A stretch of 27,600 nucleotides of DNA from a virus: the IMG/VR virus record IMGVR_UViG_3300034791_000045, positions 1 to 27,600 of that record. One strand, given 5' to 3'. Numbering within the stretch: the stretch's first letter is position 1; each line of letters opens with the position of its first letter. The notes under the pieces were generated by a model that saw nothing but the letters and a program-made list of their open reading frames with translations, had not been told where the DNA came from and searched no databases. Made by a program: the position numbers and the translations under genes. This document shows positions 13,441-16,980 of this stretch, piece by piece.

Positions 13441-13833
13441 TTATTTTAATTTAATTGCTTTTATTACTTGTAATTCTGTTATCTCTTTCTTAACCCAAAT
13501 ACGCTTTTTAAATTCAGTTGTGGCTGGTAATGATTTTTTAAACCATTTTATATCTATTTCGTTTAAGTTAAATAAATATATTCCCTCTGGTGTGCTATTA
13601 ATGTAAATTGGTATATCTAAATTCTTATTTGATTCCAATAACATAGCATCGTATTTACCTTTTTCTAATATTAATGTATCGTAATGTTTTCGTCTACATT
13701 TCAACTCTATTCTATTTTGAGTTTCAATATCGTAGCAATCCCATCTTGAAATTGGATTTTTACTGTTTACTAATGTTTTGTAATGATTGTTACTCAACCA
13801 CTCGAATAAATCCTTTTCTTTCCAGTTTTGCAT
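13441..13833 (-). CDS. putative PD-(D/E)XK nuclease, 130 aa
   Basis: Starts MQNWKEKDLFEWLSNNHYKT. The sequence SRWDCYDIETQNRIELKCRR has Asp32 followed eleven residues later by Glu43-x-Lys45, the signature of the PD-(D/E)XK fold. After that come a helix (GKYDAMLLES) and strands (IPIYINSTPEGIYLFNL) in the expected order. Such small phage nucleases are Holliday-junction resolvases or restriction-like enzymes. The fold call is good, the role unknown. It sits between the RecE-like exonuclease and a second putative nuclease. Confidence 0.7.
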   Translation of the reverse strand: MQNWKEKDLFEWLSNNHYKTLVNSKNPISRWDCYDIETQNRIELKCRRKHYDTLILEKGKYDAMLLESNKNLDIPIYINSTPEGIYLFNLNEIDIKWFKKSLPATTEFKKRIWVKKEITELQVIKAIKLK

Positions 13834-13857
13834 ATATTGTAAATATATGGATTTTAT

Positions 13858-14298
13858 TTAAAATAAAAGTTGTTGATTTTTTATTTTTAATTTAAAGTTT
13901 AAATGATTTTCAACGCTAAAGAATTGTTTTATTTCTTCATCATTACATAGCATAAAAAAATCTTTTATATAATCAGCTTTTTCATTTTGATTTTTAACTT
14001 CGTTTAAAGGTTTTATTTCATAAACTTTTGTTTTGTTGTTTAATATATTTCCTTTTTCATTCAAATCGTTTATAACGATATAACAATAAAAATCTTTTGA
14101 AGCTAACATACTATAACCTCTTAAAGAAGCTATTGAAGTTTTATCACTTGATTTTTTATGGTCAAATAAAATTTTTGTTTCACAACCTAATTTATAAAGA
14201 AAACAATCAACGTCTATAATAGTTCTTTTTTTATCTAATAAATTACTTAATTTAGCATTGAAACAATTGTTTTGGTAAGTGTATTCGTATTTTTTCAT
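13858..14298 (-). CDS. unknown protein with possible D-x(8)-E-x-K nuclease motif, 146 aa
   Basis: The segment TIIDVDCFLYKLGCETKILF has Asp31 and, nine residues on, Glu40-x-Lys42, compatible with a PD-(D/E)XK core; HKKSSDKTSIASLRGYSMLA and FYCYIVINDL follow in a suitable order of helix and strand. The motif is short and could be fortuitous. The ATG overlaps the stop of the DUF3850-like gene by four bases (ATGA), so it belongs to the ABC-GNAT cassette. The DNA is markedly more AT-rich than its surroundings, a sign of separate origin. Confidence 0.5.
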   Translation of the reverse strand: MKKYEYTYQNNCFNAKLSNLLDKKRTIIDVDCFLYKLGCETKILFDHKKSSDKTSIASLRGYSMLASKDFYCYIVINDLNEKGNILNNKTKVYEIKPLNEVKNQNEKADYIKDFFMLCNDEEIKQFFSVENHLNFKLKIKNQQLLF

Positions 14299-14510
14299 AT
14301 TCCAAGTATTAATATGTTATCTATATTATAAATAGATAAATCGTTTATATATTTTATTTCTTTTTTAATAACTTCTTTTGTTTTTAAATTTTCAAGAATT
14401 AAGATGTCTTTAATTTTATAATCTCTATTACATCTTCTTATTTCAAATGTTTTAATATTTGATTTTATATCTTTAAAATATTTATCTTGTATTTCTAAAA
14501 AATGCATCAT
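14295..14510 (-). CDS. DUF3850/ASCH-like domain protein, 71 aa
   Basis: Starts MMHFLEIQDKYFKDIKSNIK and continues TFEIRRCNRDYKIKDILILE. The pattern HFLEI-x-x-x-YF-x-x-h-x-x-x-x-K-x-FEIR-x-x-R-x-Y-hxh-x-D-I-L-h-L is that of DUF3850, a short relative of the ASCH/PUA-like fold. The conserved Lys-Thr-Phe-Glu-Ile-Arg and Asp-Ile-Leu-Ile-Leu-Glu are present. Known ASCH proteins bind RNA or hydrolyse modified bases; what DUF3850 does in phages is unclear. It overlaps the ABC-GNAT gene and the next gene by four bases each. Confidence 0.75.
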   Translation of the reverse strand: MMHFLEIQDKYFKDIKSNIKTFEIRRCNRDYKIKDILILENLKTKEVIKKEIKYINDLSIYNIDNILILGI

Positions 14511-15661
14511 ATTCCTTCGATATCAAAAATACTAATTTGATTTTGAGCTACTTCTTTCCAAGCATCAGCATTAAATGTAATTATATTTGTATTTTCTTCT
14601 AATTTATTACCAATCCATTTGTAAGAATAACTGGGTCTTTCAATTATTTTCGCTCCATTACTATTTTTACTTGGCACTTTTAAATTTCCCATTGTGGCTT
14701 TCCAGTTTTTATCTTTAGACATAGATATTCCTAAAGACGGACTCATAGTTCTAATGTACATTTGATGTTCTTCTTTCCAATATAATGCACTCATATAATC
14801 AACAATATATTTTCCTATTCCTAAACCTTGAAAATCTGGTAAAACAACAACTCTGCTAATTCGTCTTGTCTTTGGGTCGCCAACACCCGGAAATGGCAAT
14901 ATTGCCATAAAAGCTATTGGTTTATCATTCCATAAAAATACATAATTTATACACGCTTTATTCAAATCACTACTTAAATAGTGGTGTTGTTTGAATATAT
15001 CCCAAGTTTCATATCTACATCGAAATATCGAAAGTTCAATTTTTGGTCTTTGCCGAAGACGTGACGCTTTCTCAAGACGCCCTTTTAATGGTGAATAAGT
15101 CCAATCTGGTTGTATCCATTCCATAATATCAAAATGACAAGATGCCAATATTATTTTCTTATTGTGTTTTCTTATGTATTTTTGTAAAGCATTGCTCATT
15201 GCTTTTGCAACATCTCTATCTACGACAGATGTAAATTCATCTATCAATATAACATCATTTTTAGACGCTTTACCAACTTTATAAGCTAAAGATGCTCTAT
15301 ATTGTTCTCCATTACTTAAAAGTGAATAAGGACGCAACCAAGTAGGTACAGAGGCTAAACCCATAGCGGATAATAAAAAAGTTGCTTCTTTAGGTTCTAA
15401 CCAATCAAAGTTACTTATTAAAGGTTTTTCTTCATCAAACTCATCAGTAGTTAAATTGCCAAATTCTTTTAATAAAGTTGTTTTACCAGTTCCAGAACCT
15501 CCATAAATAACACCTATATTCCATTCAAAAGTTTTACATTCATTGAAATTTATTGGTATTTTTACAACAGTTTCTTCTTTGTTTTGAATATCAAATGCTT
15601 CATATACATACTCTGTATATTTGTCATTTATAATCTTGTTTCTTCGTTCTATGTATCTCAT
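14507..15661 (-). CDS. ABC-type ATPase fused to a GNAT acyltransferase-like domain, 384 aa
   Basis: The N-terminal half is an ABC ATPase: Walker A GGSGTGKTT (54-62), signature LSNGEQ (115-120), Walker B VILIDE (137-142) and an H-loop ASCH with His176. There is no membrane domain, so it is not a transporter. The C-terminal half (about 205-340) is GNAT-like: FKQHHYLSSDLNKA, a RRISRVVVLPDFQGLGIGKY motif that holds the R/Q-x-x-G-x-G/A acyl-CoA loop, and a strand MYIRTMSPSLG. Such fusions occur in phages and prophages. Mom of phage Mu, a DNA-modifying enzyme, also has a GNAT fold, so base modification is possible, but I cannot confirm it. It opens a three-gene cassette and has its own candidate promoter. 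Confidence 0.8.
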   Translation of the reverse strand: MRYIERRNKIINDKYTEYVYEAFDIQNKEETVVKIPINFNECKTFEWNIGVIYGGSGTGKTTLLKEFGNLTTDEFDEEKPLISNFDWLEPKEATFLLSAMGLASVPTWLRPYSLLSNGEQYRASLAYKVGKASKNDVILIDEFTSVVDRDVAKAMSNALQKYIRKHNKKIILASCHFDIMEWIQPDWTYSPLKGRLEKASRLRQRPKIELSIFRCRYETWDIFKQHHYLSSDLNKACINYVFLWNDKPIAFMAILPFPGVGDPKTRRISRVVVLPDFQGLGIGKYIVDYMSALYWKEEHQMYIRTMSPSLGISMSKDKNWKATMGNLKVPSKNSNGAKIIERPSYSYKWIGNKLEENTNIITFNADAWKEVAQNQISIFDIEGI

Positions 15662-15677
15662 TGTTTTTTGTTTTGTT

Positions 15678-15726
15678 CAAAAATAAAATAACTATATTAA
15701 TGTTAATGTTAAAATTTTGTTAAAAA
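15678..15726 (-). promoter_or_regulatory. candidate promoter P3 with TGTTAA repeats before the ABC-GNAT gene
   Basis: On the minus strand TATTTTTG (15685-15678) matches TAnnTTTG and lies about 17 bases before the ATG at 15661. No good -33 TTTG. Plus-strand TGTTAA (15701) and TGTTAAA (15707, 15718) lie just upstream, the last two 11 bases apart. The 22 bp at 15705-15726 are identical to 18712-18733 beside P1. Confidence 0.45.
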
Positions 15727-16574
15727 TCATAAGAATTATCAACAAATTCTGGTAAACCGTTTTCATTGATTAAAAAGCTAAAAGGTTCAAATCCTCTGTT
15801 TCTACTTCTTTTACATTCAACTGAAACCCAGCCTTTGTTTACGTGATTAGATTCTAACTTGATTTGTAGTTCTGCTTTCTTTTCTAAAAAACTACCAAGA
15901 TGACCGGTTGGCTTGTCACTTCCGTAATTAGAATGTATAACAGTTACAATATGACATTTATATAAATCAGTCCAAGACATTAATTTTTGAACTGCTACCG
16001 AACATTGCTCAAGATTATTTACGTCAGAAACTAAATCAGCAATTCCATCAATAATTATTAAACCTATATTTTTAGAATCTAAAATATTTTCTAATACGTA
16101 ATCTATAAAATCAATTCTATCTGCTGGATTCATATTTCTTAAAGCATAAGTATAATACTTATTATCAGATTCTAAACCGTTCATTATTATTGGTCTTCTA
16201 AAAACCTTTTGAGCGTGAAATCTACCTTGTTCTGTATCAAAGTGAATTACGTTTCTACCTTTTCTATGTCCTTTTATTTTACCAGTAAGTTTGTTTCCAT
16301 TATTTAAGTAAGCAGATGTTATTAAACTTGTGAAGAAACTTTTACCAACCTTTGGCGGTGCTTGTACAAAGCTAAAATTACCATAAGTCCCTAAAGGTAT
16401 TGGATATTCTGTATTTGTGCCATCTGTATTCTTTTCGGTGTAAGAACCACAACTGATTGCTACTGGTGGATATTTAACTTCTTCTGATATGTCAACGTAA
16501 GCATCATCATACAAAAGTTGCATCTCCATTCTTTTTACTTCTTTACTATCATCTTGTATTTTTGTTTGATTCAT
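15720..16574 (-). CDS. RecA-fold ATPase, AAA_25/RepA-like helicase type, 284 aa
   Basis: Walker A is APPKVGKSF (residues 72-80), the Walker B region GLIIIDGIADL has Asp176, and IVTVIHSNYGSD at about 209-220 is the sensor/motif with His. HFDTEQG (111-117) and KPTGHLGS (221-228) are also as in RepA-like/AAA_25 proteins. In the family these act as replication helicases or loaders in plasmids and phages. No primase domain and no polymerase are in the window, so this ATPase with host enzymes may start replication. The gene overlaps the preceding GIY-YIG gene by 26 bases, an unusually long overlap; the second Met at residue 16 lies about 20 bases beyond it. Confidence 0.75.
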   Translation of the reverse strand: MNQTKIQDDSKEVKRMEMQLLYDDAYVDISEEVKYPPVAISCGSYTEKNTDGTNTEYPIPLGTYGNFSFVQAPPKVGKSFFTSLITSAYLNNGNKLTGKIKGHRKGRNVIHFDTEQGRFHAQKVFRRPIIMNGLESDNKYYTYALRNMNPADRIDFIDYVLENILDSKNIGLIIIDGIADLVSDVNNLEQCSVAVQKLMSWTDLYKCHIVTVIHSNYGSDKPTGHLGSFLEKKAELQIKLESNHVNKGWVSVECKRSRNRGFEPFSFLINENGLPEFVDNSYDF

Positions 16575-16980
16575 CTTCTTTGTATTTGATTATTCTTGTT
16601 TTAAAAAATTTACCTAAAATATTATCGTTTAAAAAATTATCACTTTCTAAAACCTTTTCTTGAAATTGTAAAGCAGTTTCATAATAAGTCATCATTGTTC
16701 GATTATAACAAATGTAAACTATTTTTCTTTCACAATCTTCAACTAACCATTTTTTTGTCTCTGCATTACTTCCAGTATATTTTAGCCAATTACTTTCTAC
16801 CCATTCTATTCTTTTACGCTTGTAACCTTTTAAAGGTGGTTTAGTACGCTTATTAAGCAATATCTTTTTACCTATATAGTATTTGTTTGTTTTCTTGTTA
16901 AGTATCTTGTAAACGAAGCCTATTGCATCTTCTGGTAAATCAGTTCTTTCTTTTATAATTTGGTCTTTATATATCCACAT
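16549..16980 (-). CDS. GIY-YIG endonuclease-like protein, SegE type, 143 aa
   Basis: DAIGFVYKILNKKTNKYYIG carries the variant GIY (GFV, 21-23) and YIG (35-37) motif of the GIY-YIG nuclease fold. It is followed by PPLKGYKRKR and ESNWLKYTGSNAETKKWLVE, typical of SegE-like phage proteins. The family includes free-standing homing endonucleases of T4-type phages, but many small members are of unknown use. It begins immediately after a terminator with only a weak RBS, so it may be expressed by read-through. Homing would show up as presence/absence between related phages. Confidence 0.75.
   Translation of the reverse strand: MWIYKDQIIKERTDLPEDAIGFVYKILNKKTNKYYIGKKILLNKRTKPPLKGYKRKRIEWVESNWLKYTGSNAETKKWLVEDCERKIVYICYNRTMMTYYETALQFQEKVLESDNFLNDNILGKFFKTRIIKYKEDESNKNTR

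Follow-up and report, generated by a model that had tools for sequence, protein, structure and literature searches.

A phage cassette pairing a candidate DNA-modifying ABC-GNAT fusion with a predicted PD-(D/E)XK nuclease that accompanies changing modification-type enzymes

Organization of the locus

The window analyzed here is a 27,600-nt stretch of viral DNA (positions 1 to 27,600 of IMG/VR record IMGVR_UViG_3300034791_000045), in which three genes on the minus strand are arranged as a compact cassette (Table 1). These encode, in order, a fusion of an ABC-type ATPase with a GNAT domain (ABC-GNAT), a small DUF3850 protein, and ORF3, a predicted nuclease. The coordinates and frames given for these genes in a previous sequence-only reading of the window, together with an ATGA overlap at both junctions, were borne out, as was the AT richness of the distal part, with a GC content of 15.3% in the DUF3850 gene and 20.2% in ORF3 against 29.5% for the window. 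A promoter belonging to the cassette itself had also been proposed, and the box TANNTTTG is indeed present upstream (TATTTTTG), but such a box lies upstream of 5 of 82 relatives when 2.5 are expected from shuffled sequences, which is no more than chance. The surroundings of the cassette constitute a recombination module, in which ERF, SSB, a RecA-like ATPase, and exonuclease VIII are recognized by Pfam and PHROG. A gene for a SegE-type GIY-YIG endonuclease (window positions 16549-16980; PF19835, E=3.6e-23) is also located inside this module.

Table 1. Features of the cassette and its borders, with positions in the window
Feature	Position	Strand	Basis
ABC-ATPase/GNAT fusion (384 aa; phrog_11143), predicted ATP-dependent DNA-base acyl-modifier	14507..15661	-	Pfam, PHROG, motifs, ABC fold
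ABC-type ATPase half of the fusion	15062..15661	-	Walker A, LSNGEQ signature, Walker B, D-loop, H176
GNAT half of the fusion, HHYLS motif and acyl-CoA loop QGLGIG	14507..15061	-	PF00583/PF13508 above cut-off
DUF3850 (ASCH/PUA-like), 71 aa, optional third component	14295..14510	-	PF12961, E=2.8e-10; PDB 3iuw match, E=1.1e-14
ORF3, 146 aa, predicted PD-(D/E)XK (VRR-NUC/Hjc-like) nuclease	13858..14298	-	AlphaFold, VIA-align, invariant residues, context
Inserted block	13837..15719		Slot between AAA_25 ATPase gene and NUC2, not filled in near relatives
AAA_25 RecA-like ATPase, backbone gene, upstream border of the insertion	15720..16574	-	Pfam PF13481
NUC2, backbone gene, downstream border of the insertion, control	13441..13833	-	Restriction-fold-like motif by eye only

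Insertion into the viral backbone

The three genes form a clean insertion of ~1.88 kb in the conserved recombination module of a marine bacterial virus. In four close relatives from IMG/VR (L134, L135, L138, and L139), the flanking DNA is 91-94% identical and aligns up to position 15720 and again from 13835/13836, with just 25-29 nt in place of the cassette. Of 79 loci found via NUC2, 72 have nothing in the slot before this gene, five have some other gene there, and two have ABC-GNAT together with ORF3. The three genes thus appear to have been gained as one block, loss elsewhere being less likely in view of these slot frequencies. The same slot in L140, L143, L160, L172, and L158 encodes either a Cys-rich protein of 206-251 aa or a protein of 289 aa. 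Additionally, a related phage (L183) carries a Mom-like gene nearby, between SegE-like and SSB-like genes.

The ABC-GNAT fusion

The fusion protein retains a complete set of ABC motifs, including GGSGTGKTT (residues 54-62), LSNGEQ (115-120), D141-E142, SVVD (145-148), and H176, which vary little or not at all among 24 relatives sharing 64-83% identity with the window protein, and structure comparison recovers the ABC fold (Z 15.6 over 172 residues, rmsd 2.9). The second half matches the GNAT model PF00583 at 33 bits against a cut-off of 20.7, and its conserved loop QGLGIG (278-283) fits the acyl-CoA pattern (R/Q)xxGx(G/A). Neither the fusion nor the adjoining genes contain a transporter domain, and the description of the protein as a complete ABC ATPase without a transporter part, joined to a GNAT, therefore stands. 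The protein belongs to phrog_11143 (E=6.6e-147), which PHROG annotates as unknown function, and relatives are found in phages of Nonlabens, Tenacibaculum, Vibrio, Aeromonas, Streptococcus, Gordonia, Leptospira, and other hosts, in some cases split into two adjacent genes. The versions from distant phages keep the elements PAWLR, DEF(T/S)S.VDR, and HHYL/M as well as the QG.G.G loop. In the most closely related phage with a name (83%), Nonlabens phage P12024S, ABC-GNAT is adjoined by neither DUF3850 nor ORF3.

The prediction that ABC-GNAT proteins acyl-modify DNA reportedly goes back to Iyer et al. in 2013. In a later account by Iyer et al. (2021), a GNAT coupled with an ABC ATPase, exemplified by Tenacibaculum phage pT24, was described as earlier predicted to carry out an uncharacterized DNA-base acyl modification (PMC7824862). 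The pT24 relative, matched by locus and not via accession QAX98348.1, is 52% identical over 94% of the window protein, and on sequence grounds the latter is a member of this family of DNA-modification candidates. With the prediction already in print (PMC7824862), the suggestion that the cassette represents an undescribed system fails for its ABC-GNAT component.

The two-domain protein is common to the published system and to the window, and the neighbors differ. In several distant relatives in other phyla, a ParB_N-domain gene lies upstream and a formyltransferase gene sometimes downstream, whereas the window cassette has DUF3850 and a VRR-NUC-like nuclease as partners and no adjoining ParB gene. 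The ParB_N-domain gene directly precedes ABC-GNAT in phages of Streptococcus, Arthrobacter, and (weakly) Leptospira (L230:1872-2390, L232:1935-2489, and L234:1764-2303). A formyltransferase-like gene (PF00551) follows it in Pseudomonas phage Komp_PAO1_1 (L229:2444-4173) and Gordonia phage Shatter (L231:603-2452), a neighbor that could bear on the group transferred by ABC-GNAT. In L072, L073, L081, and L082, a third small gene, whose EVKGR motif looks restriction-fold-like by eye, is located one gene downstream of ABC-GNAT.

Close kinship with Mu Mom, which had been raised as a precedent for a GNAT-fold protein acting on DNA, is not supported by sequence: the Pfam Mom model (PF25680) gives no hit at E values up to 1, and profile comparison with Mu Mom shows no relation (probability 1.5%). 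The structural neighbors listed for the whole fusion, among which Mom does not appear, are taken up by its ABC half and do not bear on this relationship.

The DUF3850 protein

The assignment of the middle gene to DUF3850 was confirmed, with a PF12961 score of 40.7 bits against a cut-off of 22.9 and homology to the ASCH protein of PDB 3iuw; either its first or its second ATG may serve as the start codon. An association of DUF3850 with phages is known (PMC12704722), and described DUF3850/ASCH proteins include the amidohydrolase YqfB and ParB-CTPase-DUF3850 fusions, whereas the window protein stands alone. YqfB strips N4-acyl groups off cytosine by means of Lys, Thr, and Glu (PMC9599836), and the catalytic residues taken to define such an N4-acylcytosine amidohydrolase are Lys21, Thr24, Arg26, and Glu74. 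A YqfB-like deacylase was rejected for the window protein, in which motif spacing allows K20 and R25 to be matched, whereas an invariant Glu23 occupies the position of the nucleophile Thr24; without the catalytic Thr, the chemistry of YqfB is therefore not expected.

All 13 loci in which DUF3850 was found place it behind ABC-GNAT; in L069 one small ORF intervenes, and in L092 the ABC-GNAT is truncated. The 22 ORF3 contigs that carry another modifier all lack it. Such exclusivity to ABC-GNAT loci, coming from few clusters, is suggestive only. DUF3850 may be a base- or RNA-binding accessory, a role proposed with weak confidence. The view of the three genes as one obligatory system did not hold, as DUF3850 is optional and many ABC-GNAT loci lack both partners.

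The predicted nuclease ORF3

The distal gene had been called a putative nuclease, a designation upheld by fold and motif but not by any family model, since ORF3 matches none in Pfam, PHROG, or NCBIfam. Its AlphaFold model (pLDDT 86.1, pTM 0.83) follows the order helix, three strands, helix, strand (H-E-E-E-H-E). The top 12 rows of the VIA-align comparison are all Hjc, Hje, or RecU resolvases, at Z 6.5-5.5, values that fall in the range described by the tool as common. Foldseek matches, weak throughout (E 0.005-0.04), comprise restriction endonucleases and splicing endonucleases, including a tRNA-splicing endonuclease, and, in the viral library, phage VRR-NUC proteins (E 0.005, probability 1.00). 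All 68 sequences compared share residues D29, D31, D46, H47, K48, and E94. With the core topology and a D..(D/E)xK active site present in the model, and with modest scores that agree with one another, the prediction of a PD-(D/E)XK nuclease is supported. ORF3 thus resembles VRR-NUC, archaeal Hjc, and RecU proteins in predicted fold and D..DxK-type active site, and differs from them in lacking a significant Pfam or PHROG family.

A scan with the single ORF3 sequence returned no relative, whereas an alignment-based scan did. The profile scan of IMG/VR retrieved 59 contigs, or 60 with the window, which form 31 clusters at 95% identity. No homologue was found in sequenced phages or bacterial genomes, so that the family is known from these uncultivated viral contigs only. 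In the ORF3 tree, the clade of the window is placed on a long branch (1.53) and has ABC-GNAT partners only.

Genes upstream of ORF3

In all 60 contigs, an enzyme-sized gene is located directly upstream of ORF3 or separated from it by DUF3850. This gene encodes ABC-GNAT in 38 contigs (including L092, counted from a C-terminal fragment at the contig end), a TAGT DNA glycosyltransferase in 17, a thymidylate-synthase-like protein in two, and Mom (PF25680, E=1.6e-28), an N6_N4_Mtase (E=3.6e-28, with an 83-aa ORF between methylase and ORF3), and an unassigned protein in one each. A recognized modification- or nucleotide-related enzyme is therefore present upstream in 59 of 60 contigs, and a recognized structural or regulatory gene in none. 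In L105, the modifier place before ORF3 is taken by a 442-aa protein (L105:3659-4987) without a Pfam or PHROG family, GT-B glycosyltransferase-like by eye. The order ABC-GNAT, DUF3850, ORF3 is seen again in four other clusters of ORF3, so that the refuting condition of the sequence-only reading, a lack of co-occurrence of the three genes elsewhere, does not hold.

The enzyme upstream of ORF3 has been exchanged in place. Contigs L110 (methylase) and L108 (TAGT) share their backbone on both sides, with homology returning 5-6 nt before the ORF3 start; pairwise DNA comparison of L109 (ABC-GNAT) with L108, L105, and L116 likewise reveals a swap in place, and across the comparisons homology resumes 5-13 nt upstream of that start. 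ORF3 proteins at least 95% identical, belonging to one cluster, are accompanied by ABC-GNAT in L021 and by the methylase in L110. At least 11 partner changes are counted on the ORF3 tree, and at least four are required for ABC-GNAT if only well-supported branches are counted, as estimated by a quick method on a tree with one long branch. ORF3 is present in several backbones.

Such precise swapping up to the ORF3 start, together with the acceptance of other genes by the AAA_25/NUC2 slot, is also what would be seen if ORF3 were neutral or unrelated to its neighbors, its flanks merely providing homology for the exchange of morons among which modification enzymes are frequent. This account of the linkage is considered unlikely, because ORF3 and ABC-GNAT together enter an otherwise empty slot in the window and in L196/L197, because ORF3 recurs in different backbones and has a recognized modification- or nucleotide-related enzyme before it in all contigs but one, and because its invariant catalytic residues argue for selection. 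NUC2 from the same phages, used as a control over 79 loci, keeps no modifier company: its upstream neighbor is the AAA_25 gene in 72, and the cassette takes that place in two.

The identity of the partners likewise bears on what ABC-GNAT acts upon. Phage GNATs are known to modify RNA polymerase (PMC7824862), ASCH/PUA-like domains often contact RNA, and a tRNA-splicing endonuclease is among the fold matches of ORF3; ABC-GNAT might accordingly have a protein or an RNA as its acylation target (host RNA polymerase, ribosome, or tRNA), like phage Rac, with ORF3 and DUF3850 acting on RNA. We regard this as quite improbable, since the TAGT, Mom, and DNA methylase partners of ORF3 in other contigs are all DNA-directed, and distant ABC-GNAT genes stand beside ParB_N-domain genes and are published as DNA-modifying candidates (PMC7824862).

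Among 76 ABC-GNAT loci with enough downstream sequence, ORF3 follows in 19 and a second nuclease family in nine. ABC-GNAT is thus often without the nuclease, whereas the nuclease has not been seen without a modifier-type enzyme, an asymmetry that would follow if modified DNA were protected from cutting. Restriction-modification linkage is accordingly seen in the form of genomic linkage only, as ORF3 does not occur without an enzyme-sized gene (unassigned in one case) in the 60 contigs and the asymmetry is present. The genomic evidence for the association of ORF3 with modifiers is strong. The guess of the sequence-only reading that the cassette concerns modification is strengthened in so far as ORF3 lies behind TAGT, Mom, and N6/N4 methylase genes in other contigs, while an undescribed system as regards ABC-GNAT, close kinship with Mom, and an obligatory trio are not supported.

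A second nuclease family

The VRR-NUC-like gene found behind ABC-GNAT in nine loci (family b) shows weak similarity both to ORF3 (hhalign E 8e-5, probability 60) and to VRR_NUC (E 0.011). Of 17 contigs retrieved with this family, nine have ABC-GNAT upstream (separated in some cases by one small ORF or a short gap), two have a C5 methylase (E=3.8e-44), two have TAGT, and one has MazG with thymidylate synthase; in two more, MazG is accompanied by a general methyltransferase or by a ribonucleotide reductase further upstream, and one contig ends at this point. Family b repeats the partner pattern of ORF3.

Proposed mechanism

Taking together the gene order, the insertion as a unit, the predicted fold and invariant residues of ORF3, its constant modifier-type neighbors, and their exchange in place, the best explanation is a phage-borne modification-plus-nuclease cassette, which we consider to have a slightly better than even chance of being correct. 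The ABC half would clamp DNA in an ATP-driven manner, enabling the GNAT half to take an acyl-type group from acyl-CoA and attach it to bases in the phage DNA, and ORF3, as a small PD-(D/E)XK nuclease, would attack unmarked DNA, either the host chromosome or that of a competing phage, while sparing marked phage DNA; DUF3850 would be an accessory, probably binding bases or RNA. Confidence is strong for DNA as the substrate of the GNAT, good for DNA cutting by ORF3 (a predicted activity), moderate for protection of DNA from ORF3 by the marks, and weak for which DNA is targeted and for what DUF3850 does.

Because the nearest folds of ORF3 are resolvases, the main rival is that ORF3 is a Holliday-junction-type resolvase for hypermodified phage DNA that ordinary host resolvases cannot process, serving as a helper of replication and packaging of such DNA instead of an attacker of unmodified DNA. 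Hjc, Hje, and RecU head its structural neighbors, the cassette sits among recombination genes, and such a function would also account for the constant company of modification enzymes. The methylase partners speak against it, as plain N6/N4 or C5 methylation (L110 and, for family b, L215) should not stop host resolvases; moreover, most ABC-GNAT phages do without ORF3, and an Hjc-like fold does not by itself fix the substrate. This rival is judged unlikely. The modification-plus-nuclease reading also has its counter-points: sparse sequence-specific methylation, as in L110, is not obviously blocking to a structure-specific nuclease of the VRR-NUC/Hjc type, the thymidylate-synthase-like partners may just make nucleotides and not modify DNA, the 442-aa partner in L105 belongs to no assigned family, the fold matches of ORF3 are weak, and the recombination regions concerned are active, so that a shared insertion hotspot could explain part of the linkage.

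A bolder version of the modification-plus-nuclease reading, held tentatively and with the balance against it, is that one nuclease family acts as the restriction half for chemically unrelated marks, namely acylation, glycosylation of hydroxymethylated bases, Mom-type adenine modification, and N6/N4 methylation. Modifier genes would then be swapped like cartridges, with C5 methylation perhaps added via family b. A published parallel to the cassette comes from jumbo phages, in which Mom domains are fused to REase-fold nucleases, a predicted restriction component (PMC7824862). By prediction, both arrangements couple a phage GNAT-type modification with a restriction-fold nuclease, so that self is spared and other DNA attacked (PMC7824862). 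In the present cassette, however, modifier and nuclease are encoded separately, the GNAT is of another family and is joined to an ABC ATPase, and the nuclease family also pairs with glycosyltransferases and methylases.

Significance

The ABC-GNAT prediction was already known, and what is new is the cassette nuclease that stays while the modifier changes; no description of the ORF3-modifier pairing was found in the literature, in which the 2013 paper and a 2020 classification of ABC ATPases could mention the nuclease. The association provides independent genomic support for the published prediction of DNA modification by ABC-GNAT proteins. Additionally, the ORF3 family can serve as a marker, the gene preceding ORF3 being a candidate DNA-modification enzyme, such as the 442-aa gene of L105. 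If it is true that the nuclease ignores the chemistry of the mark, this would be an unusual form of discrimination between self and non-self DNA. Keeping the cutter while swapping the labeller suggests a self/non-self system compatible with several DNA labels.
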